From a virus: a DNA stretch of 27,480 nucleotides. The position numbers were made by a program, and so were the translations under genes. Below are positions 2,167 through 27,185 of this stretch, one piece after another. A model generated the notes under the pieces. That model searched no databases, was not told where the DNA came from, and saw nothing but the letters and a program-made list of their open reading frames with translations. Location of the stretch: positions 1-27,480 of the IMG/VR virus record IMGVR_UViG_3300027714_000095. One strand, given 5' to 3'. The stretch's first letter is position 1. Each line of letters starts with the position of its first letter.

Positions 2167-4722
2167 TTATGATAATATTTTAAATCTTTGATTTGTTGCT
2201 GCACTTTGACTGTTTGACCAATAAACACCTATTTCGAAATAAATACCAGAAGTACTGCCATTGTTCATTGTGAAAGTGAAAGAATCATTTGGCTGTATAT
2301 ATTGTGCAGAGTTACCTGTTGTGTTCCAAATTTCTTGATTTGGAACTTGAGTAACGTTTGTTTGATTTATAATCATATTTGTAAATCCTTGTTGATTATA
2401 CGTGTAATAATTTAAACTTTGAAATTCACCAGTTGCCCCTCCAGTTGCTTTCATCCATAGCCAAACCCCTGCAGTTGTATTATTTGTTATTGTCCTAAAC
2501 GCGCTACTACCAGGTGTAGGTACTGCATTTAATTCAGTGTTGATTGTAGGTGCATTATTTTGTGATACACATGTCACGGGTTTTAATAATGTTGATGTTG
2601 TTTTAATTAGTGCGTATTTTTTACCATCCTGTGCCCTATCTTCTATTAATGAATAATATGGATATCCAGCACCTGGTCTGTTTTGATTATAAATCTCTAT
2701 AACTGGGGAAGATCCTAGAGACTGTACCCAATTAAGATTTACATAAAGAATACTAGTATCTGATACGGTATTAAATATTTTGTCCAAACTCCAAAGAGGT
2801 ATTGGATTATCATCAAGTGGATTAGTATTTCTACCAAAATATAAAGTAATATTATCAGTAGAGATGCTATCACACACATTTGAATTATTAAGAGAAGATG
2901 CGGTTATAGGACTTGACTTTATGTTAACATATAATTTATTGATTGAAGCTCCTGTAAAGCTATTTCCATTCCAATATCTCCTGTATACTTCTTCCCCTGT
3001 TCCGAACTCTCTGATCCATCCTGCATTAGGAATTGCTCCGGAAGATGAAAATGTAATAGTTGTTGCATCTTTAAATAATAGTGTGTCTATATTATATGAC
3101 ACTTCAGTAACTCCCGCCGGTAATGTTGCCCCATTTAACTCTGTGTCAAAAACAGCTGATCTACTTACTAAGTTTTTTGTATATATTATTGGACATGCAA
3201 ATTGTATACTCGCCCATTCAGATCCAGTCCAATATCTAGAAAGTTCTTCTCTTTGATACCATCCGGCATTAGGCGATGCACCTGCAGTTCCATTATTGTT
3301 TATGTATAGCATTCCTAATGGACCATTAGTCCAATCAGTACCTGTCCATAAATATGTTTGTAGTGCTGCATCACATGCTTGTTGGTATGTACTTGCGGCA
3401 ACTGTTAGTTCTATTTCTGTTGGTACTATCACACCTGCAGAGGGATCTGATAGCCAATATAAGGAAGCTTCCCCTAGTTTAATTATATTTACATTTCTTT
3501 TAATAGATAAATCAGAAGTTCCTGAGGCAGCCTGTAATGGTATAGAATCGTTAAGTACTTCAACGGTCTGTGATACATCATATCCAAGTGTTGTTTGGTT
3601 GTAAACTGCATCAGATCTTGTGTTACTACCTGCTATTATAACTGGGTCTGGGTTTGTAACAACAATATCTACTTCAGGGCCATCATATTCTGTATTTGAA
3701 TCTGTATTTGCTATAGTATAATTAAAGGAATTTAAGTTAGGAACTTCAAATTGAAGTACTCCATCAATCCATTTTTGCCCATTAGCTAAATACCAACCGT
3801 CAAACATAGAACCTTCTCTTCCTCTACCGTATCCTATTTTTAAATATCCGTCATCCCCTATTTCAGAACCATCTAATATATGAAAATTATTATTATTAAA
3901 ATCTTCTTCTCTAATTGTAATGAAAGATCCTCTAGGTAGTGCACTAAATACTTCAAATCTATTTTTCCATTCTACATTACCATAAGTATCTGTTGAAACT
4001 AAAACTTTATTTTCTAGTGCATTATTATCATATGAAAAATCGCCAAGAACCTCAAATTCATCACTAAATGTAGAATCAACATGAGATTTAAGGAGTTTGG
4101 TAGTATCTTCGTTTATAACTTCTAATAAATCAGTACTATCTCTATGCTTATACTTCCTAACACTGTTAATAACAGGTTCGTTAATATCTAATAACCATGT
4201 TGCTGTTGCTAGTTTTCCAATATTAAGATCCAAATCAATACCCGCTGTAGAACTTTCCTTCGTTCCCCATGACGCCCTGCTAGAATTATTAGCAAGTGCT
4301 ATGTTATTTTTTTGCGGAGTTCCTAAGAAAAGACCTGGAGTTAACTCAAATAGAAGAGGATTATTATATTCATATGATCCTGTTGATGCTCCAGTTAATA
4401 TAGCAATTGGTGAGTATTCTATACCACCTTGATAGTTTGGAAGTATTGTATTATTTGTGTTTGATCTATTTATATTCCATGTAAACTTACCACTAAGACC
4501 TTCAGTTCCTTGAAGTCCTTGATCTCCTTTATTACCTATTATTCCTTGTGTTCCATGTTCACCGGTAATACCATCAGGACCTTGATTACCTAATGGGCCG
4601 TATGCCCCACCTTTCTCTAATTGATTAAAGTTAAAATTAATCTTATCAATTTTATCCTTAGCCCACCAATTAGTACTGTTCGGATCTAGATCACTTTTGA
4701 ATATCTCTTTAATATTTAACAT
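2167..4722 (-). CDS. Collagen-like tail fibre protein (851 aa) with tail-collar-like module
   Basis: Order of modules: an N-terminal attachment motif (NIKEIFKSDLD, then KINFNFNQL at about 27-35) shared with the downstream fibre; 13 Gly-X-Y triplets at 42-80; a beta-rich region; a collar-like module at about 262-345 (PRGSFITI, FDGWYLANGQKW, VPNLNSFNYTIA) also shared with the downstream fibre; then two related modules at about 446-510 (PNAGWYQREELSRYWTGSEW) and 550-600 (PNAGWIREF, then YRRYWNGNSF). The last 130 residues are beta-rich and not recognised. The NAGW/RYW pattern resembles repeats I associate with Bacteroidota surface proteins. I infer a trimeric tail fibre. The start lies 4 nt after the stop of the 1484-aa gene, so translation is probably coupled. 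There is no Shine-Dalgarno. No fibre chaperone is seen in the window. Confidence 0.82.
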   Translation of the reverse strand: MLNIKEIFKSDLDPNSTNWWAKDKIDKINFNFNQLEKGGAYGPLGNQGPDGITGEHGTQGIIGNKGDQGLQGTEGLSGKFTWNINRSNTNNTILPNYQGGIEYSPIAILTGASTGSYEYNNPLLFELTPGLFLGTPQKNNIALANNSSRASWGTKESSTAGIDLDLNIGKLATATWLLDINEPVINSVRKYKHRDSTDLLEVINEDTTKLLKSHVDSTFSDEFEVLGDFSYDNNALENKVLVSTDTYGNVEWKNRFEVFSALPRGSFITIREEDFNNNNFHILDGSEIGDDGYLKIGYGRGREGSMFDGWYLANGQKWIDGVLQFEVPNLNSFNYTIANTDSNTEYDGPEVDIVVTNPDPVIIAGSNTRSDAVYNQTTLGYDVSQTVEVLNDSIPLQAASGTSDLSIKRNVNIIKLGEASLYWLSDPSAGVIVPTEIELTVAASTYQQACDAALQTYLWTGTDWTNGPLGMLYINNNGTAGASPNAGWYQREELSRYWTGSEWASIQFACPIIYTKNLVSRSAVFDTELNGATLPAGVTEVSYNIDTLLFKDATTITFSSSGAIPNAGWIREFGTGEEVYRRYWNGNSFTGASINKLYVNIKSSPITASSLNNSNVCDSISTDNITLYFGRNTNPLDDNPIPLWSLDKIFNTVSDTSILYVNLNWVQSLGSSPVIEIYNQNRPGAGYPYYSLIEDRAQDGKKYALIKTTSTLLKPVTCVSQNNAPTINTELNAVPTPGSSAFRTITNNTTAGVWLWMKATGGATGEFQSLNYYTYNQQGFTNMIINQTNVTQVPNQEIWNTTGNSAQYIQPNDSFTFTMNNGSTSGIYFEIGVYWSNSQSAATNQRFKILS
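4483..4599 (-). repeat. Collagen-like Gly-X-Y repeat in the 851-aa fibre
   Basis: Thirteen consecutive G-X-Y triplets (residues 42-80: GPL GNQ GPD GIT and onward to GLS GKF). They are composed differently from the stalk of the neighbouring fibre, which argues for divergence after duplication rather than a recent copy. Confidence 0.85.
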
Positions 4723-15472: not shown

Positions 15473-18400
15473 TTAAATAATGTTTAATATGTTTTTCGTT
15501 ATTGTATTCTTATTTCCGTTTGAATCTTGTATTTCTAACTCTACTGTGTAATATCCTTTGTCTTTAAACAGATGAGTTAATACTTGATTACTATAATATA
15601 TATCATCGATATTTATCGTATTGTTTGTCACCTTCCAATTTTGTGAAACTATTCCCGGCATATTAGTTAAATCATATGAAAATGTCACGTGATTTAATTT
15701 ATGTAAGTCCACTAATCCGTTAATAATATATGTATCATCGAAACTAGGATTATAACTTATGAATTTTATTTGTCCTCGAATTGCTGATGCATATGGTGTA
15801 TAATTTTCTAGCTGACTCATCCAAACATATTCAAAATCGTATGTTCTTGCAGGCTCTTCAGCAACTGCTAGTATGTATAATAATTGATCATTAATACCAT
15901 TGCTAGCTATATCATCATATACTGGATTAAAATTAAATTTACTTAAAATAGGATGTTCGTTAGAATCTAAACTATTAAGTTCATCTGCAATTAACTGCCA
16001 TTGTGATATCGCAAATGATGTCGGTGGGATTATATTTACTATTTGATAGCTATCCCTTGATATTGCACCAGTTCCCGGATCTTTTTGTGTGATATTAATC
16101 CATTGATTACCAGGTACTGCACATATTTGAAATGATGAATTGATATCTGAACCGATTCTAGTCATTTTCCAAGTTACCTCAGGACCATCATCCCATACGT
16201 GATTATCTAAAGCCGACCATTGATAAGGACCAGACGTTTCGTTAAATCCACTAGACTGTGTTGCATCTTGGTATCTTCTAACTGTTGAGAATTCTAATCC
16301 ATTTTCCTCAGGGTCTTGTACATAGTTAGCGCGATCCATTGTTAAATAGTATGTGCTAATAGTATCAGATACTGGTAATGTATTTTCTCTAGACCAATCC
16401 CAGCTAGATCCTGACTTATCCCATGAATATACGTATTCTTGCCAATCTAATTTCTTTGGTGACAATGATGTAAGTCCGTAAAGTTCAACGTTTTTGTTCT
16501 TAACCTCAACTGCATCTTTTATAATCTTAGTACTTTTTACATTATATAAATCATATAAGTTTGCTTCAACTGTATATAATCCAGCGTATGGTAATGTCAT
16601 TGGGAATTTAATGTATTCTTCGATAGGGCCTCTGAAAGATCTTAAATAATTCCTAGGACCTCTTAATACCCATTCTATTTCATAAACTCCTCTGTGCCAC
16701 CAGTTATCCCATGTTAGCAGGTGATTACCAGTGTCTTCTGCGTCATCCCATGTGAATTCAGCAACATCCCAGTCTTGTTCAATACCTTCAATCTCTAAAT
16801 TAATTGGAGCTCCAATTGGAATTCCATCAATTGTATTAAAAGTATCTAAATTACTGTTATAATATTCAGTGTAAAAATCGTCTATAGAATTATTTACGAT
16901 TGGAAGGAAATTTAAATTATTAATATCTTTTCTAATATCTCCTAATTCATCTGATGCAATTTTAAACTTAAAAGCATCACTATTATTATTGCCTGTGGCT
17001 TTGTAAAAACCGTCAAAACTATAATATAAACATAGAGATGTATTACCTGCTTTACAAATCGTATAAGTATCTGTATCTTCTGAATATATTAATTGAAATT
17101 CTCTTCCAGGAGACGTCGTGGTAGCGCTACTATTGACTAGGGTGTTTGGATTATTAGTAGCATTAGAGCCTGTTAATTTCAAGGGATTACCTTGTTTTGA
17201 AACTATATTATAAAATCCATTTGAGTTTTTTCTAAGGGTGAATTTAGTATTTTCAAGATCTCCATTTACTTCGCCAGTAATTGGTATTGATTGTGGTGGT
17301 ACATCATCAACACGCATAAATGTTTTTGATTCAATGTGGTATATTGAGAATTCCACAGTATTTGATAATACGTTATTTAAATCGTCAAAATCTTGACCAA
17401 CCCCTGTTAATCTATAATCAACCTTACGTAAATCTTCTATAAAGATATTTCTACCCTCAGGTTTTAAAACTGGATTAAATTCTACACCTGCCGTTTGGTT
17501 TTGAATCATGTGTTGATTATTCCAAACGTTTTGATTAAATTGAGAAAAGTAATCTCCTTCCCCTGTAATATCTACAATCTTAGCCTGTAGTGGTAAGTAA
17601 TCTTTTTGTAGTTTCTTTTTTAATCCATATAATTTAATTAATACTTCATCCGGAGAAAAGTCTATAGTTTCTTCAACGATAGGCATATCCCATTCGTCCT
17701 GTAAACCAGTTGGTGTATTTAATCGGTATACTAAAGAAAACCTTGAAGTTTTCTTTTGATTTGAGTTTGGTAGGTCTGTTGTTTTATTTTTATCAGCTAA
17801 GAAACCAACAACGTCTTGATTAGGGACTGCAACTGCTTTTAATTTACCAAAGTTTTCACTTTGTTCATTTATGTTTAACCAATATTCTTTTAATGTTATT
17901 TTATCGTACCCAAAGAAATCAACTGCATTTAGCAAGGCTTTATAAGTCCCTATGAAGGGCTTTATCTGCGAAGCCTGTAATAATAGTTCTTTTCTCTTTT
18001 GATTAAGTAGGATGTGATCAGGTGATTGCTCGTTGATGTTTGAATCCTTAAATATGAAATAGTCTAAATCATCAAGATTCATACCAATATTTGATAATAA
18101 GGTTCTTAATCTTTCATCTTCTCCTTCAACTTCACCGTATACTTTAATTCTTGCAATCTCTCTAGTTTCTAAACCATTAACAACTTCTATAATTGAAAGA
18201 GGTCTAATGTGAAATCCTTCAACTTCAGAATTTAAAGCAGCACGAACCATTATAGGATCCGCTTTTAGATTTGCAGTTACTATTTTTTTATCAGTATCTG
18301 TATTATATCCTACTTCAATACTACTATCTAATAATGTAGCAGATTGTTCTAAATCTTTTTGTACTAGTATTTCCCCAGCATTTGGTTTAGCACTATATAA

Positions 18401-18667
18401 AAATATATCTTCACTTGTATTATAGTCATTTGAAAATCTAAACTTAAAAGAAACATCGCCAACTGCTTCTGCAATTGGAGTCACGTGCAAGTCTTCTAGC
18501 AATTGTCCTTCAACATTCTCTAAAATATGGAGAGTTAATGTCTCGTATAATCCTGTTGAAACCAGTGGAAGATATGCAACCCCTTGCCATAAATCTAAGT
18601 CTGTATTAAAGACTAGATTTAAATCGTTGGAATCACTATCAAAAAATCTTAGATTATTATATGCCAT
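15473..18667 (-). CDS. Baseplate wedge protein, T4 gp7-like, with beta-trefoil and PKD-like domains (1064 aa)
   Basis: Its length and position directly after gp6 match T4 gp7 (1032 aa), the wedge protein joining gp6 to the outer baseplate. The segment at about 220-265 (KRKELLLQASQIKPFIG, then LLNAVDFFGYDKITLKEYW) resembles the helical core of phage tail protein I / gp7-type proteins. Two kinds of insert stand out. Residues about 436-573 show a three-fold pattern (FSIYHIESKTFMRV, FYNIVSKQGNPLKL, TYTICKAGNTSLCL, each followed by an F.L/F.F strand) as in ricin-type beta-trefoil lectins. Residues about 655-722 and 990-1064 look like PKD or Ig folds (GYYTVELEIQDSNGNKNTIT near the end). Core assignment rests on synteny plus motif; insert functions are inferred. 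It overlaps the 90-aa gene by one base (TAATG). Confidence 0.75.
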   Translation of the reverse strand: MAYNNLRFFDSDSNDLNLVFNTDLDLWQGVAYLPLVSTGLYETLTLHILENVEGQLLEDLHVTPIAEAVGDVSFKFRFSNDYNTSEDIFLYSAKPNAGEILVQKDLEQSATLLDSSIEVGYNTDTDKKIVTANLKADPIMVRAALNSEVEGFHIRPLSIIEVVNGLETREIARIKVYGEVEGEDERLRTLLSNIGMNLDDLDYFIFKDSNINEQSPDHILLNQKRKELLLQASQIKPFIGTYKALLNAVDFFGYDKITLKEYWLNINEQSENFGKLKAVAVPNQDVVGFLADKNKTTDLPNSNQKKTSRFSLVYRLNTPTGLQDEWDMPIVEETIDFSPDEVLIKLYGLKKKLQKDYLPLQAKIVDITGEGDYFSQFNQNVWNNQHMIQNQTAGVEFNPVLKPEGRNIFIEDLRKVDYRLTGVGQDFDDLNNVLSNTVEFSIYHIESKTFMRVDDVPPQSIPITGEVNGDLENTKFTLRKNSNGFYNIVSKQGNPLKLTGSNATNNPNTLVNSSATTTSPGREFQLIYSEDTDTYTICKAGNTSLCLYYSFDGFYKATGNNNSDAFKFKIASDELGDIRKDINNLNFLPIVNNSIDDFYTEYYNSNLDTFNTIDGIPIGAPINLEIEGIEQDWDVAEFTWDDAEDTGNHLLTWDNWWHRGVYEIEWVLRGPRNYLRSFRGPIEEYIKFPMTLPYAGLYTVEANLYDLYNVKSTKIIKDAVEVKNKNVELYGLTSLSPKKLDWQEYVYSWDKSGSSWDWSRENTLPVSDTISTYYLTMDRANYVQDPEENGLEFSTVRRYQDATQSSGFNETSGPYQWSALDNHVWDDGPEVTWKMTRIGSDINSSFQICAVPGNQWINITQKDPGTGAISRDSYQIVNIIPPTSFAISQWQLIADELNSLDSNEHPILSKFNFNPVYDDIASNGINDQLLYILAVAEEPARTYDFEYVWMSQLENYTPYASAIRGQIKFISYNPSFDDTYIINGLVDLHKLNHVTFSYDLTNMPGIVSQNWKVTNNTINIDDIYYSNQVLTHLFKDKGYYTVELEIQDSNGNKNTITKNILNII
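16949..17362 (-). other. Putative ricin-type beta-trefoil (carbohydrate-binding) domain
   Basis: Covers residues 436-573 of the gp7-like protein. Three pseudo-repeats of about 45 residues share a pattern of hydrophobic pair, four to six residues with K/S/G/N, then a L/M-x-L/V turn, followed by an aromatic beta strand (TKFTLRKN, REFQLIYS, FKFKIAS). Canonical QxW motifs are replaced by EFQ and similar, so the fold is likelier than sugar binding. Confidence 0.5.
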
Positions 18668-18939
18668 TATCTGAATCTTTTATCTTCTTTTTTAGTTGTA
18701 TATGACTTGAATCCCTTTAAATAAGCGACTGCATTAATTAAGTCAGAGAATGTCTTTTGGATTAATATTACAAAATCATTCATTGTATTATTTCTAAAAA
18801 TATACTCTGACATAGAATTTCTTAAAACATTTTGACTATATTCATTACCTAGGTTTTTGCGATTATCAACAGCAGTTTTACGTACCTCTGAATCTTTCCT
18901 CTGTCTGCTTTTAAATAAATTTTGAATAAGTGAAGCCAT
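18667..18939 (-). CDS. Small basic protein between gp6 and the gp7-like gene (90 aa)
   Basis: Not recognised. It is a basic, mostly helical protein (SLIQNLFKSRQRKDSEVRK near the start, EYIFRNNTMNDFVILIQKTF in the middle, KKEDKRFR at the end), with no signal peptide or clear membrane helix. Both its ends overlap neighbours by one base as TAATG: its start sits in the stop of gp6, and its stop overlaps the start of the gp7-like gene. That double coupling suggests it is made in step with the wedge proteins and may be a small wedge subunit or assembly factor. T4 has no gene between 6 and 7, so this is an addition or a very divergent relocated gene. Confidence 0.68.
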   Translation of the reverse strand: MASLIQNLFKSRQRKDSEVRKTAVDNRKNLGNEYSQNVLRNSMSEYIFRNNTMNDFVILIQKTFSDLINAVAYLKGFKSYTTKKEDKRFR

Positions 18940-20759
18940 TATAATGCTTTTCTATTTTTAGCTTGTATTTTAGAGAATATTGTGTTCGGTACTGCAGGTT
19001 CATCAAAGTAAATTGATAGTGCTGCCATTTCTCCCATCTTAGCATCATCTAAAACACTCACACTATCTCTATCTATCCAACCTCCTCTAAAAAGAGCAAC
19101 TTCTTCTTTTTCTAAAATAATATCTCCAAAAGAATCTAAGTTTATTACCTCTTCTGGTAATGCAGCATTAGGTTCAAAGTTGATTTTTTGTTTTGTAACT
19201 GTTCTTTTAAAGAAAACATATTTAGATTTACCATTTCCAATATCTTCTAATACTGGTGTTGATGGAGTAACCGTTACTTTTTCAAGAATGTAATATCCTA
19301 ATCTTCTAGCGTCTTCTTCTGTTTTAGAAGTAAATTTAACATTTACAGAATCTATACCCTCTACCGTTTCCAATAAGGCGATGATATCTGATTTTGGTAA
19401 ACGATCTCTTCTTGTTATATTAATTAAATAGTCTGAAATTTTTCCACGAATTTCAGAATACATAGTTGCTTTATTATATCCTTCAAAATATCTTACTTTA
19501 ACATCCATTCTAAAGTTTTGAATACTAGGCTCTACTATTTTAACTTCAGTCGTAACCATCTGTTGTCCACTGTTTTCTAATAATTCTAATAAACCATTCT
19601 TTTCATCACTAGAGAAAAAGAATTCATCTAACTCTAAATTAAAATAATCTTTATTCTTAGTTAATTTTCTAGCAGTGTCTGGTAGCATAAATAAATAGAT
19701 AACATTATCATCATCTAAATATCCATCGTCAGTTGTATTATATGCATCTAAATAAGAGAACATACCGTATCTAGATAAGAAGTGTTCATATGCATTTGGA
19801 TTTGCCAATACAAACGAATGTGATTGTAGAGGAGCAATAAGTTTAGTTAATTCAGTTGATTCTGGATCTGCTCCCATTTTAGGTGAAGCTGTAAATGAAG
19901 ATTCTAAAAGTTCGTTTAAATCATATGTTTCTCCAAGTGAATCGAAACCTTCAGAAATAAACTTAAACGTAAGATCCTTAGAACCTGTTAAGTTTCCTTT
20001 AGATCCGTCAGTCAATAAATACTCTATATTAATAGAAGCTCCCTCAGTTGGTATTTCACCAAATGAACCATTTCCAAAATAAATATCTAATCCACCTGAA
20101 ATACCAGTTTTAACTAAATATCCTTTAGTACCAACTTTCATATCATATAATGAATCATATTTAGTCCATAATTCACTATTAACACTTACTCGGGTAGAGT
20201 GATGATCTGTTAAACCTTTAACTATTACATTAAATGATTGTAATTTTTCACCGGTTCCGGTCACTGTTTGTGATTCTACAGTTCCTTGAACAACCGGGAC
20301 ATAGATATATTCTGAATTGCTTTTTTCAATTCTAAATTTATCGTTGTTTGTCTTTAAAATATATGTTAATCCGTTTTCAGTACATTTTATAGTTGAATTC
20401 TTTATAATATTAAGAGCATCGCCTGCTAAAGTTTCACTAGCTGATACATTTAAACGTAGTTTAATTTCACCATAAGCGCTAGCACCTCTAAAAGAATCAT
20501 GCCCCGCTAATCTAGCAAGTCCATAAATTGATTCAGGGTTTTGTGCAGTTAATATATTCTGCTCAACTGTTGAATCTTCAATATAGAAGAATATCAGTTT
20601 TGTTAGTTCAGTTAATACATCCAAGATTTGAGAAAACGGAGAAGCTGTTGTGAATAATTCACTAGTTCTTCCATATAAACGCGAAATGTATGTTCTCGTA
20701 TCTGAGATCATTTCATTTGCTTTAATTCTTGAAGTATTTAAAAATTTAAATTCAGCCAT
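18939..20759 (-). CDS. Baseplate wedge protein gp6 (baseplate J-like)
   Basis: 606 aa against 660 in T4 gp6, the dimeric wedge protein that forms the inner ring of the baseplate. The N-terminal helical part (LYGRTSELFTTASPFSQIL, then IFFYIEDSTVEQNIL, YGLARLAGHDSFRGASA at about 29-96) is the classic start of gp6/baseplate J proteins, followed by beta structure. The middle segment (IYFGNGSFGEIPTEGASINI, 226-245) is the baseplate J core. The C-terminus has FRGGWIDRD (557-565), which I recall as typical of gp6. Directly upstream is gp25, its partner in the wedge, 18 bp away; directly downstream the 90-aa gene overlaps by one base. The leader is A-rich with no Shine-Dalgarno. Confidence 0.9.
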   Translation of the reverse strand: MAEFKFLNTSRIKANEMISDTRTYISRLYGRTSELFTTASPFSQILDVLTELTKLIFFYIEDSTVEQNILTAQNPESIYGLARLAGHDSFRGASAYGEIKLRLNVSASETLAGDALNIIKNSTIKCTENGLTYILKTNNDKFRIEKSNSEYIYVPVVQGTVESQTVTGTGEKLQSFNVIVKGLTDHHSTRVSVNSELWTKYDSLYDMKVGTKGYLVKTGISGGLDIYFGNGSFGEIPTEGASINIEYLLTDGSKGNLTGSKDLTFKFISEGFDSLGETYDLNELLESSFTASPKMGADPESTELTKLIAPLQSHSFVLANPNAYEHFLSRYGMFSYLDAYNTTDDGYLDDDNVIYLFMLPDTARKLTKNKDYFNLELDEFFFSSDEKNGLLELLENSGQQMVTTEVKIVEPSIQNFRMDVKVRYFEGYNKATMYSEIRGKISDYLINITRRDRLPKSDIIALLETVEGIDSVNVKFTSKTEEDARRLGYYILEKVTVTPSTPVLEDIGNGKSKYVFFKRTVTKQKINFEPNAALPEEVINLDSFGDIILEKEEVALFRGGWIDRDSVSVLDDAKMGEMAALSIYFDEPAVPNTIFSKIQAKNRKAL

Positions 20760-20777: not shown

Positions 20778-21131
20778 TTATACGTAAACACCCATTTGGA
20801 TTCTACCATCAATTATAATATCTAAAAAAACAGCATGTCTATCTGTTTCTTCTGCATAATCTATTTCTATATCAACACTATATTTACTAGATAATGGAAC
20901 GTATGCGATCAATTGATCTTGTATTGATTTTTTTAACATATAATCATTATATCTTAATTCATATACATAATCTTCTAAATTTGCTCCAAAATTAATATCA
21001 TTTAAAACCTCTCCCTTTCTAGTGAAAAGAACAGTTTCTATCTGAGTTAATAACATTGATATTTCAGCATCTTGCTGTATCTTATCAGGGCTAAAGTTAG
21101 GTTCTCCAACATTTTTTACGTAAAATTCCAT
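20778..21131 (-). CDS. Baseplate wedge protein gp25
   Basis: 117 aa, close to the 132 aa of T4 gp25, in the GPW/gp25 family. The protein joins the inner baseplate and primes sheath assembly together with gp6 and gp53. Diagnostic features are the helix followed by a turn and short strand (IETVLFTRKGEVLNDINFGA at about 32-51), the helical YVYELRYNDYMLKKSI and the paired C-terminal strands (YSVDIEIDYAEE, HAVFLDIIIDGRIQMGVYV). Synteny gp25-gp6 strengthens the call. The ATG at 21131 is 15 bp after the stop of the preceding gene; a palindromic TATATA sequence touches the start codon and no Shine-Dalgarno is present. Confidence 0.9.
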   Translation of the reverse strand: MEFYVKNVGEPNFSPDKIQQDAEISMLLTQIETVLFTRKGEVLNDINFGANLEDYVYELRYNDYMLKKSIQDQLIAYVPLSSKYSVDIEIDYAEETDRHAVFLDIIIDGRIQMGVYV

Positions 21132-21146
21132 ATAGTATATATACTT

Positions 21147-21977
21147 TTAAGAATGCATCATCCAATCAGTGCCTTCGTCTCCTTTTATTTCTTCAATTAC
21201 TGCTTCTAGTTCATTTTCACCAAGACCTTGTATTAAATCAGCATTTACTTGAATATTTCCAGGTAATGTGAATCCAAAGATTCCTAGTTTTTGACCTAAT
21301 GATACTTTAATTTTAGCAGCACAATATCTAAAGAACGATTCATCTCCAAATAATGCACATTCTGGAATAGTTTCATAAACTTCTAAAATAACATCTTTTT
21401 GAGGAGTACCTCCAGTAAATTTTAATTCATGTGTTAGTTGACTATAATTAAATGAGATAGGATTCTCAATAATCTGACGAGCTAGATCATAAAAACTTTC
21501 GTTAATTACAAACGATTGTAAGTTTTCAGCGCCAGCTGCAGTACTTGCTCCACCATACATTCCTTGCATCATCATTCTTTCAGTTGAGAAATCTCCTTGT
21601 GAGAAATTAATATCTGAAGAACCTCCCCATCTTGATCCGGTTTCAAATACTCCATATACTGAGTATATTTCGTTTCCACCTGTCGTTGTATCAGGGCCTG
21701 GTAATGTGATGCTTCTATTTGCTTTAAAGTGATCACTATCAAATAAAGATACCGGTAGCACTACAAAACTTTCCTTAACTGAATATTCGTAGTTTTTATA
21801 GAACCATTTCTTTGCTCTTTTAACTATATTTTGAACTTCTTTTTTTGGTAAATTCATCGGAATCATACAAGATCCTGTAACTTCCTCTGCTAATTCAGTT
21901 ACGAATTCATTAAAGCATTGACTACCAAACTGTGGATTTTCTAACCAAGTTTCATCTCCTAAAAATATATTACTCAT
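21147..21977 (-). CDS. Virion structural protein of unknown role, upstream of gp25 (276 aa)
   Basis: Not confidently recognised. The N-terminal half is helical and charged (KEVQNIVKRAKKWFYKNYEY). The middle is low-complexity Gly/Met/Ser-rich (about 115-150, including ERMMMQGMYGGAS). The C-terminus has CAAKIKVSLGQKLGIFGFTL and then helices. A 'long helix plus PG-loop plus acidic helix' ending occurs in phage connector-type proteins, so a neck, tail-completion or wedge-associated role is possible; this is inference. It is 17 bp from the amidoligase and 15 bp from gp25, in the same probable transcript. The leader AAATAAATAAGGAAAATG contains AAGGA, but only four nucleotides before the ATG. Confidence 0.7.
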   Translation of the reverse strand: MSNIFLGDETWLENPQFGSQCFNEFVTELAEEVTGSCMIPMNLPKKEVQNIVKRAKKWFYKNYEYSVKESFVVLPVSLFDSDHFKANRSITLPGPDTTTGGNEIYSVYGVFETGSRWGGSSDINFSQGDFSTERMMMQGMYGGASTAAGAENLQSFVINESFYDLARQIIENPISFNYSQLTHELKFTGGTPQKDVILEVYETIPECALFGDESFFRYCAAKIKVSLGQKLGIFGFTLPGNIQVNADLIQGLGENELEAVIEEIKGDEGTDWMMHS

Positions 21978-23352: not shown

Positions 23353-23380
23353 AAAAAACCCGAGACTATTAAATCTCGGG
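23353..23380 (-). terminator. Intrinsic terminator after the S1 homologue
   Basis: On the minus strand a perfect 7-bp stem CCCGAGA / TCTCGGG with an 8-nt loop is followed at once by six T residues. It lies 24 bp past the stop of the S1 gene. It is the only clear rho-independent terminator seen in the window. Read on the plus strand, no T run follows the stem. Confidence 0.88.
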
Positions 23381-23404
23381 CTGTTTACTTAAAAAATATA
23401 CTTA

Positions 23405-24670
23405 TTAAATCTTTAAAAAGATCTTACGAGTAGCTGCATCAATTCTTGTAACTTGAACTGTTATACTATCTCCTGGTTTAATATCAGTTGTTTCTAAAAC
23501 ATCTTCAATTTCTGAGATATGCAATAATCCTGCAACTCCTTTTTCAACATCTATAAAGATTCCATAATCTTTAACTGCTCTAACTGTTCCTACAACCTCA
23601 CTTGGTGTCTTAATACGGTCTTCAATACCGTCCCATAAGTCAACTGAAGGTGCTTGATCCAATTGAGTTAATATAATCTTAGTGTCGCTAACAACTTCTT
23701 TAATTTTGAAAGTTATTTCAACGCCTGGATTAATCTCTCTAGCTTTATGAGCCTTTAACATTTCAGGGGTTAGGTCGTTAACGTGAATCATTCCAGTTAA
23801 ACATTCTTTGAATTCAACAAATACTCCGTATTTTGCAGATCCTGTAACGTTCCCTGTAATTTCTTCTCCAATGTTTTCTTTTAATTCTTCGATTCTAGAA
23901 GGAATCATGGCTTTAAGATATTCTCTATGTGATACTACAATAGTTCCTCTCTTTTCTGAGAAGCTTACTGGAACAACGTACATGTCTGTTCCGATAATAG
24001 ATTCAAAATCTACTAACTTGTTAATACCAGCTAATGAACCTGGCATGAAACAGTCAATTCCTTGAATACGAACGATGTAACCACCACCCGGAATCATTTC
24101 AGTAACAGTACCCATATATCCAGTTGATCCGCCCTCGATAGATGCCATAATTTCAGCAACAACCGCAGTCTTAACTCCAGCTGAGATAGAACCTAATACG
24201 TATCCTTTAGATCCACCATATTCTAGAACTTGAATTTTAACTTCATTTCCTACTTTAAATTGATCTCTAATACTCGCTTCTTCTTTAACAACAGAAACAT
24301 AAACAGATTCACGATATCCAATATCAACTGATACCCATGTTTCGTTAACCGTCTCAATAACTCCATCGTAAATTCCACCATTTTCAATTTTTAATTGTTG
24401 AATGCTTTCCACTGATTCTTCATGACCTGTTAATAGGTTTAAGAAATCTTGTGCGTATGGTGCTGTTGAATATACAGTCCATCCGTTAGGTGCCTTTATC
24501 TTAGTATTATGTACTCTTCCTTGGCTAGGACAATCTGCTTGATGTGCATCCCAATCAAATTCATTGATAGGAACATTTGCATATTCAGTAAAGTCAATCT
24601 CTACTCTTTTTTTAGTCTCAACTTCTGGGTTTGTTACCGGAAGTCTTTTTCTCTTAACGTCTTTTGACAT
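23405..24670 (-). CDS. Phage-encoded ribosomal protein S1 homologue, four S1 domains (421 aa)
   Basis: Four S1 (OB-fold, RNA-binding) domains are visible: about 98-163, 181-248 (GGYIVRIQGIDCFMPGS), 269-337 (YGVFVEFKECLTGMIHVNDL) and 357-421 (YGIFIDVEKGVAGLLHISEI). Order and spacing match domains 1-4 of bacterial S1, which normally has six in this host group, so the last two are missing. The basic N-terminal tail (KDVKRKRL) leads to NEFDWD at 36-41, which resembles the FDWD segment I recall at the start of Bacteroidota S1 proteins. In E. coli S1, domains 1-2 contact the ribosome and 3-6 bind mRNA. A role in favouring phage mRNAs, or as an RNA-process cofactor, is inferred. It has its own candidate promoter and terminator inside a baseplate cluster. 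The leader AAATTAAAAAAAGATG has no Shine-Dalgarno. Confidence 0.9.
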   Translation of the reverse strand: MSKDVKRKRLPVTNPEVETKKRVEIDFTEYANVPINEFDWDAHQADCPSQGRVHNTKIKAPNGWTVYSTAPYAQDFLNLLTGHEESVESIQQLKIENGGIYDGVIETVNETWVSVDIGYRESVYVSVVKEEASIRDQFKVGNEVKIQVLEYGGSKGYVLGSISAGVKTAVVAEIMASIEGGSTGYMGTVTEMIPGGGYIVRIQGIDCFMPGSLAGINKLVDFESIIGTDMYVVPVSFSEKRGTIVVSHREYLKAMIPSRIEELKENIGEEITGNVTGSAKYGVFVEFKECLTGMIHVNDLTPEMLKAHKAREINPGVEITFKIKEVVSDTKIILTQLDQAPSVDLWDGIEDRIKTPSEVVGTVRAVKDYGIFIDVEKGVAGLLHISEIEDVLETTDIKPGDSITVQVTRIDAATRKIFLKI

Positions 24671-24713
24671 CTTTTTTTAATTTAAATTGTTAGTAATTGT
24701 GTGTAAATAATTA

Positions 24714-24726
24714 TAATGTATATATA
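24714..24726 (-). promoter_or_regulatory. Candidate late promoter TATATATACATTA before the S1 homologue
   Basis: The minus strand reads TATATATACATTA, ending 43 nt before the S1 ATG and within the 60-bp gap after the 565-aa gene. It resembles T4 late TATAAATACTATT and the other sites here, though CATTA replaces CTA. It contains the palindrome GTATATATAC. Function inferred. Confidence 0.38.
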
Positions 24727-24730
24727 CGTT

Positions 24731-26428
24731 TTAAAATGCAACAGGTATAAATCCAATCATAGGCACTGGGCCTACTGGTGTTGTAATACCTCCTAGATAT
24801 AAAAACTTTAATAATGCTAAATGCTTAGCAAATGATACTGCTACTGCAGTTGCAACTAATTTTGATGCTATTGGATTTGCCGGCTGGACTTCAAAAATCT
24901 TACCAGTATTCCATGCTCTTCTTAAATCGTTTGCTAACATTGATTTACTTCCATAATATATTGGTGCATAAATTCCACCCAATGGCAGTATTGTATTACA
25001 AGGTGGGACTGGTGGCAATGATGTAAATGGCTGAGCTGCCGCAGATTGCCAATATTTTATAACAGCTGATGCCATCATTTCATACGGATCTGTACCATCT
25101 TCTTCCTGATCTTGTTTAAGCTCTTCTTCTTTAGATCTTGCCCATTTTATTTGAGTTTCCCTCCATCTTTTCTTTTCTTTCTTATAAAGTTCTATCTTTC
25201 TACCATGGGATCTAGCCCTAGATCCTGAATCACTGGGCTTATCATAGCTTTTTACATATATAAATTTACATATAAAATTATCTGTAAGGTCGTCGGGTAT
25301 TGATTCAACTCGATCTATGTGCTCTTCTTGAAAAACATATTGATTTATAGTATCTTCAACCTCAATAGGCGGTATAGCCTCTAATGTGAATCGGGTTTGA
25401 CCAGGTGTTAATCCTTTTTTCTCTTCTGCTCGCCACGTAGCTTCTAATTTTTTAATGGCGTTCTCGACCTTTAATCCGAGAGCGTTAAAAAGACCATAAT
25501 TCCCTAAACGATAAACCCATGTTTTAAAGTATTTAGTTCCGTCGTTTTGTGCAAGAACTCTCATTGCTAACGCATTTATCTGTTCAGTATCCGTCATTGT
25601 TGGTATTGGATTCCTAGGTTCTTTTTCAATAACCTCAGGATATTCTGAAACGTCACCCTGTAGAACTTCATCAATATCACTTAGTTTCTCAAGAACACCA
25701 CCATCACCTATAGTTATAGATTTTGATTTATTAACAGTTCTAATAAGATCATCACCCGTGTTGTTTAATATTTCAATAAAATTATAGGTATATTTACCAG
25801 GAACCTGTGGTATGTTAAGGGTTGTGAATCCTGTATTGCCAATTGATATAGGTTCCTGCTCAATGTTATTTAATGAATATCTTACATTGTATGATTGTTT
25901 ATCATCGTATTTTGATAATGTGAATTTAACTATATAGTTATGCGAGGCTTCATTAATATCGGAAGAAGCTTTTGTTACCACATTAAAATCTACAGAATCT
26001 CCTTGCTCTGTATCTTCTATTGGATACGGAACAGGGCATGTTGAATTATATAGAGGATAAAATCTAAATTTGTTAAGAGTATCTGTATTTTCTAGTGCCC
26101 ATTTTTCAATTTCACAGCTTGCATCAAAACTAAGATCCGCACCTGGTATGACTTCCATCATATCTCTATACTTCTCGATTGTTTTCCTATCCTCTAAGGA
26201 AGTATCATAATCTTCATATAGTTTTTTGAAAGCTTTTTTAAAACCTGCATCGAGTATTGGCCTTTGACCGGCATTATTATGTGTATTACCAAATGGGGTT
26301 TGAGCAGATGCTACGGCACTAGCATATTCATTCGCTAAAAACTCTCCAAATTTTGGAATGCTTTCAATACTCCTACTATCTAATCTAGTGGAAACGTTAT
26401 TTATAAATATAGGCCATTTTGCCGGCAT
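24731..26428 (-). CDS. Virion protein of unknown function with an Ig-like insert (565 aa)
   Basis: Not recognised by name. The N-terminal 125 residues are helical and look conserved (KFGEFLANEYASAVASAQTP, then GFKKAFKKLYEDYDTSLED). Residues about 143-241 alternate like an Ig fold (NYIVKFTLSK, YNVRYSL, GKYTYNFIEILN). A helical, highly charged stretch follows (about 400-445: KKEKKRWRETQIKWARSKEE). The C-terminal 100 residues are Pro/Ala-rich with a hydrophobic helix (ASKLVATAVAVSFAKHLALL) and end GPVPMIGFIPVAF. It lies 28 bp after the gp5-like hub gene, with a late-promoter-like motif between them, and before the S1 gene. A role in the tail hub or tail tip is likely from position alone. Confidence 0.7.
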   Translation of the reverse strand: MPAKWPIFINNVSTRLDSRSIESIPKFGEFLANEYASAVASAQTPFGNTHNNAGQRPILDAGFKKAFKKLYEDYDTSLEDRKTIEKYRDMMEVIPGADLSFDASCEIEKWALENTDTLNKFRFYPLYNSTCPVPYPIEDTEQGDSVDFNVVTKASSDINEASHNYIVKFTLSKYDDKQSYNVRYSLNNIEQEPISIGNTGFTTLNIPQVPGKYTYNFIEILNNTGDDLIRTVNKSKSITIGDGGVLEKLSDIDEVLQGDVSEYPEVIEKEPRNPIPTMTDTEQINALAMRVLAQNDGTKYFKTWVYRLGNYGLFNALGLKVENAIKKLEATWRAEEKKGLTPGQTRFTLEAIPPIEVEDTINQYVFQEEHIDRVESIPDDLTDNFICKFIYVKSYDKPSDSGSRARSHGRKIELYKKEKKRWRETQIKWARSKEEELKQDQEEDGTDPYEMMASAVIKYWQSAAAQPFTSLPPVPPCNTILPLGGIYAPIYYGSKSMLANDLRRAWNTGKIFEVQPANPIASKLVATAVAVSFAKHLALLKFLYLGGITTPVGPVPMIGFIPVAF

Positions 26429-26456: not shown

Positions 26457-27185
26457 CTATTTACCTTTTTGCTGATAATTAATGTGTTTGCTCTTTAACA
26501 CAGCAATTGTCGCTGGTGTGATTGGTGCAGGTGGCCCTGATGGTCCTACTCCTGTTGGGTGAAAATGGTTTTTGTAATCATCTAACAATTCGTCTAACCA
26601 TGCTTCTAAAGAAACTCCTCTAACTACAGGTTCTGATTCATCAGCACCGTCTTCTCCAGTATTACTTAAAAATATATTTCCAGAATCTAGAAAGATTTTA
26701 GAGTCAGTTGATATTTTTATATGTCCTTCTTCGTCGATTTGAATGATTGGTCTTTCTTTAGCTCCTGATCCTCTAGAAATTACTAATCCGTCTTCCGGAG
26801 ATGAATATATTCTTATGTTTCTTTCAGCATCATATACTAATGAAACTACATTATGTGCTTCAGCCGAAGGATCTAAAATATCTTCTTTAAGTTCTTTATT
26901 TTGATTGATTTGAAACCAGTATTCTGGGTGATAGATATTACCATTATCGAAACGAATTGCTACTATGTCTCCGACTCTTGGTATTGAATGAGCCCCTGCA
27001 TTGTCGCGATTCATCGGGGTTGCCCATGGTAGAGCATCTTCCGTTAATTTATCAAACTTACCGTATACCTTAACCTTACATCTTCCTAATTTAGCAGGGT
27101 CTTCATTAGATACAACCTCTCCTAACCAATGGGTTTCCCTAAGGTTATCAGATTCTAGTTCTTTATTTTTATTTTTATTAATCAT
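26457..27185 (-). CDS. Baseplate hub protein, gp5-like OB-fold, no lysozyme domain (242 aa)
   Basis: The segment at about 18-95 (THWLGEVVSNEDPAKLGRCK, then LPWATPM and IPRVGDIVAIRFDNGNIYHP) is the OB-fold of gp5/gpV/VgrG-type spike hubs, which cap the tail tube at the centre of the baseplate. Residues 110-175 are short beta strands as in a spike stem (IIQIDEEGHIKISTDSKIFL). The end has a NHFHPTGVGPSGPPAPI motif (206-222) typical of phage hub and spike proteins. At 242 aa it is far shorter than T4 gp5 (575 aa), and no lysozyme domain is present. Its start overlaps the end of the preceding gene by 8 bp (ATGATTAA), indicating coupling. Confidence 0.85.
   Translation of the reverse strand: MINKNKNKELESDNLRETHWLGEVVSNEDPAKLGRCKVKVYGKFDKLTEDALPWATPMNRDNAGAHSIPRVGDIVAIRFDNGNIYHPEYWFQINQNKELKEDILDPSAEAHNVVSLVYDAERNIRIYSSPEDGLVISRGSGAKERPIIQIDEEGHIKISTDSKIFLDSGNIFLSNTGEDGADESEPVVRGVSLEAWLDELLDDYKNHFHPTGVGPSGPPAPITPATIAVLKSKHINYQQKGK

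Follow-up and report, generated by a model that had tools for sequence, protein, structure and literature searches.

The window analysed here, that is, the whole stretch of DNA, is a virus record from IMG/VR that is 27,480 bases long and in which the main genes all lie on the minus strand. Most of the window genes with a recognisable family encode tail or baseplate proteins, and among them lies one complete open reading frame, running in a single frame from ATG to stop, whose product resembles bacterial ribosomal protein S1 (bS1) (Table 1). In the clade to which the window belongs, gene order was nearly invariant, leading from the gp5-like hub and a gene of unassigned function to S1, the amidoligase, the Ad2-like adaptor, gp25 and the wedge. 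The amidoligase was found downstream of S1 at 107 of 108 loci of this clade, and the hub was found upstream at 98 of 99. When loci with enough upstream sequence were chosen by their neighbours, S1 was present at all 133 loci chosen by the amidoligase and all 56 chosen by the baseplate wedge, two sets that overlap in contigs. These results showed that S1 is a core gene of the window's clade. Bacterial contamination was rejected, since tail genes flank S1 at the phage loci of this clade.

Table 1 Features of the S1 locus and its neighbours, with positions in the window
Feature	Position	Strand	Basis or remark
Baseplate wedge subunit	18939..20759	-	Relative of Tenacibaculum and Flavobacterium phage wedge proteins
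gp25-like baseplate wedge protein	20778..21131	-	Family matches
Head-tail adaptor Ad2-like protein	21147..21977	-	Family match
Amidoligase-like enzyme, C-terminal pentapeptide-like beta-helix	21994..23289	-	Amidoligase_2 matches; downstream of S1
Predicted intrinsic terminator	23357..23382	-	Terminator prediction; directly after S1
Four-domain bS1-like protein, 421 aa	23405..24670	-	ORF, Pfam/NCBIfam matches, Bacteroidia profile, AlphaFold2, Foldseek
S1 domain 4, residues 352-421	23408..23617	-	Canonical RNA-binding motifs; sequence and AlphaFold2
S1 domain 3, residues 265-336	23663..23878	-	Canonical RNA-binding motifs; sequence and AlphaFold2
S1 domain 2, residues 181-250	23921..24130	-	Most conserved domain; degenerate, docking type
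S1 domain 1, residues 95-161	24188..24388	-	Degenerate, ribosome-docking type; model strands 100-161
Arg120 in domain 1	24311-24313	-	Equivalent in position to E. coli Lys43
Putative N-terminal aromatic anchor FDWDAHQ, residues 38-44	24539..24559	-	F-x-W motif common to Bacteroidia bS1
S1 mRNA leader, A-rich	24671..24704	-	34 nt; conserved in relatives
Promoter-like element, TATATA core	24710..24729	-	Upstream of S1; conserved in relatives
Upstream neighbour, unassigned function	24731..26428	-	Family searches
Baseplate hub OB protein, Phage_base_V, gp5-like	26457..27185	-	Family matches

The initial annotation had placed S1 inside a baseplate cluster. This holds for the window's clade, where tail and baseplate genes stand on both sides, but not for the Lak phages and some other huge phages, in which S1 is distant from the baseplate wedge gene. 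Part of the window-clade gene order was kept in LR756500, a 462-kb phage, and S1 adjoined other large tail genes in LR745206, LR756502 and contig L043. The enzyme family next to S1 was highly conserved, and 8 of its 13 members matched Amidoligase_2 (best E 2.8e-8); the predicted model of the amidoligase-like protein had a core too weak for a fold match. Elsewhere in the window, a large tail protein (15473-18667) carries an ulvan-lyase-type beta-trefoil and PKD domains, which suggests carbohydrate binding, and two tail-fibre proteins (1-2115 and 2167-4722) matched collagen-like fibre families.

The HMM search that had been proposed for the S1 gene matched its product to the Pfam S1 family with E 1.4e-22, and the best NCBIfam matches were models of 30S ribosomal protein S1, which aligned to residues 84-419 in one stretch (E 3e-44, 151 bits). 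The other NCBIfam models (CvfD, GSP13, PNPase, RNase R) reached 75 bits or less; PNPase scored 51 bits, RNase R 37 and GSP13 63, and the GSP13-like matches covered single domains. A PDB sequence search likewise matched bS1 chains from ribosomes best. The AlphaFold2 model showed four beta-barrels with helices between them (mean pLDDT 75). Its top Foldseek matches were ribosome-bound bS1, the first being a 30S mRNA delivery complex (E 1e-26), and the best PDB matches were overwhelmingly ribosomal S1 chains. A PNPase, RNase R or GSP13 module was ruled out by the model scores together with Foldseek. The curated rpsA cut-offs were missed, with 151 of 524 bits; because the protein is divergent and two domains short, we named it a homologue and not an equivalog. 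As judged from its sequence, the 421-aa protein is a genuine phage bS1 homologue spanning domains 1-4, and the family models, the tree described below and Foldseek all supported the initial annotation on this point and spoke against a PNPase or RNase module.

Genuine bS1 docks on the ribosome with its first two domains (PMC10123108). Its pattern of degenerate domains 1-2 followed by RNA-binding domains 3-4 was found in the phage protein by both Pfam and a residue check. Domains 3 and 4 alone reached the Pfam S1 cut-off, and they alone carried canonical motifs (KYGVF..GMIHVNDL and DYGIF..GLLHISEI); domains 1 and 2 came to light only in alignments to complete rpsA models and in the predicted structure. 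Four canonical S1 domains had been described earlier, and the number agrees with the four predicted barrels, but the YG.F and IH motifs are confined to domains 3 and 4. Positions 42-367 of the Bacteroidia S1 profile, covering domains 1 to 4 of six, aligned to residues 94-420. Compared with six-domain Bacteroidia S1, domains 5-6 were absent from the phage protein, as the earlier description of two missing domains had stated. Between the window and its close relative L005, dN/dS of S1 was 0.07, similar to that of the adjacent structural genes, which indicated purifying selection.

The contacts of S1 with the ribosome are known from E. coli, in which Phe5 and Phe9 of the N-terminal helix stack on uS2 Phe32. 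There, Lys43 reaches into the zinc pocket of uS2, and OB2 turns Phe120 and Phe130 towards the mRNA (PMC10123108). The N-terminal FDWD segment reported earlier was present at residues 38-41. An F-x-W motif ahead of domain 1 was found in S1 sequences from phages (111 of 113) and from Bacteroidia (76 of 77); it occurred in 0 of 30 S1 from genomes of other Bacteroidota and 0 of 6 from other phyla, and in the form tested, F-x-W[DE], it was absent from the huge-phage family members. Its position and aromatic character suggest that the F-x-W segment is a uS2 anchor. The Lys43 position held R or K in 37 of 37 phage rows, and K in the bacteria checked. The OB2 aromatic pair corresponded to Tyr198 and Phe208 of domain 2, again kept in 37/37 phage rows, and domains 3 and 4 retained their RNA-binding aromatics and histidines. 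Across the family, conservation was lowest in domain 1 (0.55) and reached 0.80 in domain 2. Both an aromatic anchor and a basic residue for uS2, features of bS1 with a role known from E. coli (PMC10123108), could thus be recognised in the phage sequence. The conserved contact residues are in line with the earlier view that the ribosome-contacting domains 1-2 and two mRNA-binding domains are kept. The anchor motif, together with wedge relatives in cultured Bacteroidota phages, points indirectly to a Bacteroidota host; no S1 domain was detectable in the cultured jumbo phages whose wedges are related (Tenacibaculum, Flavobacterium, Chryseobacterium and PAU phages).

A first viral scan gave 41 loci, and a profile scan of viral sequences gave at least 533 loci encoding relatives. 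With the same profile, the bacterial genome scan found no relatives of the phage family. The annotated phage records with the family came from Prevotella Lak phages and from huge phages of metagenomes, 462 to 735 kb in size, and in BFVD, related sequences from uncultured phages carry the name 30S ribosomal protein S1. Some hits in the phage collection, to Acinetobacter MD-2021a and faecal clones, resembled ordinary bacterial rpsA and were excluded as phage evidence. The sampled phage copies formed one clade (100/100), which was shared with LR756500-type and Lak S1 with the same support and stood apart from cellular S1 on very long branches. With one deep phage clade and zero relatives in the bacterial genome scan, a recent capture from the host was rejected. 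The AU test gave p 0.27 for a common clade with Bacteroidia and p 0.52 for one with all Bacteroidota, the phage branches being very long, and an origin of the phage clade inside Bacteroidota was neither shown nor rejected. Two relatives have altered S1 genes. In L003 (2008-3273), which is 97% identical, S1 is split at invariant Ser247 by a TCA-to-TGA change, either a sequencing error or a real nonsense mutation; a supposed frameshift in this relative was dismissed, as the single change comes with no indel. In Lak-B5 (Prevotella; L046 11941-13050), the FDW segment is kept and an acidic tail takes the place of domain 4.

As for expression signals, TATATA was found within 100 nt upstream of S1 in 60 of 66 non-identical relatives, usually 30-60 nt before the start codon, and under a strict rule a terminator followed S1 in 46 of the 66. 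From the promoter-like element and the usual terminator, S1 appears to stand as its own expression unit. In a 175-kb relative, TATATAA lay upstream of genes 33 times in the sense direction, compared with 8 times antisense and 13 in shuffles, and it also preceded tail genes. The TATATA element may be a late promoter. Late-type control had been raised for S1, and the promoter-like element that it has in common with tail genes is suggestive of it. The S1 leaders across relatives contained about 1% G and differed from the leaders of other genes: held-out S1 leaders had a median score near 11, with 3 of 35 below zero, and the best of 136 other leaders from the same loci scored 0.6. Such conservation could be explained by strong translation of S1 or by binding of S1 to its own leader.

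In Bacteroidota ribosomes the anti-Shine-Dalgarno sequence is hidden, and suspicion for the choice of start sites falls mainly on bS1. Neither the window nor the 175-kb relative showed a Shine-Dalgarno signal, consistent with the leaders described initially; in the 175-kb relative, Shine-Dalgarno cores preceded 3.7% of 191 genes, compared with 4.3% in shuffles. Adenine in this relative reached 62% at -14 to -11 and 61% at -3, compared with 43% further upstream. The same A-rich start context is found in F. johnsoniae, and positions -12 to -15 have been proposed as the contact of bS1 domain 4 there (PMC6847099). The phage S1 terminates after domain 4. Addition of F. johnsoniae bS1 doubled initiation on mRNA without a Shine-Dalgarno sequence (PMC9976891). 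Because Bacteroidota host mRNAs share this grammar, the absence of Shine-Dalgarno sequences cannot by itself favour phage mRNA. The idea that late mRNAs without them are selectively steered was therefore not upheld, given the phage-wide absence and the F. johnsoniae-like start context.

Taken together, a phage bS1 working on host ribosomes is the most likely explanation, to which we give a probability of about 0.64. The F-x-W segment and domain 1 would dock on uS2 of the Bacteroidota 30S subunit, and domain 2 would be positioned at the exit channel for mRNA; ahead of the start codon, A-rich RNA in single-stranded form would be gripped by domains 3 and 4. Host bS1 is loosely bound and exchangeable. 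The phage S1 may displace it when bulk phage protein is needed, and may aid initiation on mRNAs without Shine-Dalgarno sequences. Because of the bS1 homology and the conserved ribosome-contact features, replacing or competing with host S1, as first suggested, is the best reading. Strict retention in the clade, purifying selection, the start context and the company of bS21 also speak for it. Against it weigh the scores below the rpsA cut-offs, the lower conservation of domain 1, which would be the chief anchor, than of domain 2, the missing F-x-W[DE] in huge-phage members, the very long branches and the indirect host assignment. Homology, domain order, conserved contact residues, core-gene status and leader composition are seen in the sequences; ribosome binding, the replacement itself and its timing are what we infer.

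Host S1 also works off the ribosome with T4 RegB or Qbeta replicase, many S1-domain proteins act away from the ribosome, and the phage protein has canonical RNA-binding residues in domains 3 and 4 and its lowest conservation in domain 1. It could accordingly be an RNA-binding factor that never joins the 30S subunit and serves as a chaperone of A/U-rich phage RNA, an antitermination partner or a nuclease cofactor. We consider this unlikely, as F-x-W, the Lys43-type basic residue and a non-RNA-binding domain 1 would be needless for a pure RNA binder. The retained docking features and the loss of the last two domains would also suit an antagonist of host translation, which would fill the bS1 site on uS2 and, without domains 5-6, deliver host mRNA poorly and cause host shutoff; phages do target host S1, as when T4 ModB modifies it (PMC10468400). 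Such a role seems quite improbable, however, since domains 3 and 4 look RNA-competent, an S1 with four domains is the normal form in Firmicutes and Actinobacteria (PMC6705787), and a blocker would harm the phage too when the start-site grammar is the same in phage and host. A virion component, packed along with the tail and injected for an early role, would account for the location among baseplate genes, which is fixed in the window's clade, but is very hard to reconcile with an S1 that is preceded by a promoter-like element of its own and usually followed by a terminator, that in Lak and several other huge phages is remote from the wedge gene, and that is missing from cultured Bacteroidota phages with related wedges.

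A phage-encoded S1 has precedents. Phage S1 has been known since 2020, when S1 proteins were reported in a few huge-phage genomes with a proposed role in initiation and rare Shine-Dalgarno motifs (Al-Shayeb et al., PMC7162821), and the window protein adds to that group; a 2019 survey had omitted the S1 domain as common in other proteins (PMC6375957). The huge-phage S1 proteins (LR756500-LR756504, LR745206, Prevotella Lak) fall in the same clade (100/100) and have the domain 2-3 signature in common with the window protein. In contrast to them, the window's clade has the F-x-W anchor, the fixed baseplate-amidoligase locus and the conserved leader; the Lak version is without domain 4, and the family now covers at least 533 viral loci compared with the few genomes in PMC7162821. 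Bacteroidia bS1 (rpsA) is alike in having domains 1-4 in order, the F-x-W N-terminal segment and the domain 3-4 RNA-binding residues, whereas the phage protein has only about 25% identity to it, is without domains 5-6, is set apart by a very long branch and carries a phage-specific CPS..NP..KT..YAQ stretch between anchor and domain 1. The bS1 of the cyanophage PhiMa05, described in 2026, is comparable by its description, being phage-encoded and assumed to replace the host copy, but its authors traced it to a Vampirovibrio-like host, and it is found alongside five other ribosomal proteins (PMC13157829). The bS21 phages of Chen et al. (2022) are likewise large, with predicted Bacteroidetes hosts and a ribosomal protein gene near structural genes, and their bS21 is expressed late and linked to late replication; bS21 is the subject there, and a text search of the paper for bS1 gave no mention (PMC9723584). 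No description of the core status, fixed locus, Bacteroidia-type anchor or leader was found in the literature searched.

Seven of 14 large S1-bearing phage records also encoded bS21, which lay about 18-25 kb from S1 in 5 of them. In the 175-kb relative, bS21 (L250 9251-9439; G002 89251-89439) has the orientation of S1 and is located about 18 kb upstream of it, and two tRNA genes, Arg(tct) and Glu(ttc), were found at L254 10502-10766. In the E. coli 30S subunit, bS21 braces bS1 (PMC10123108). Phage bS1 and bS21 may refit the mRNA platform together. More speculatively, the clade might rebuild the mRNA-recruiting platform of Bacteroidota with its own bS1 (and in some phages its own bS21), the Bacteroidia-specific aromatic tag and autoregulation through the leader, and so obtain a phage-specialised ribosome that has an mRNA preference of its own; we hold this to be doubtful.

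Because the start context is shared with F. johnsoniae, the correlation published for huge phages between S1 and a lack of Shine-Dalgarno motifs (PMC7162821) loses weight, and it may do no more than mirror their Bacteroidota hosts. A minimal four-domain bS1 with a Bacteroidia-type anchor, strictly kept in its clade, would be a small natural test protein for start-site choice in Bacteroidota.
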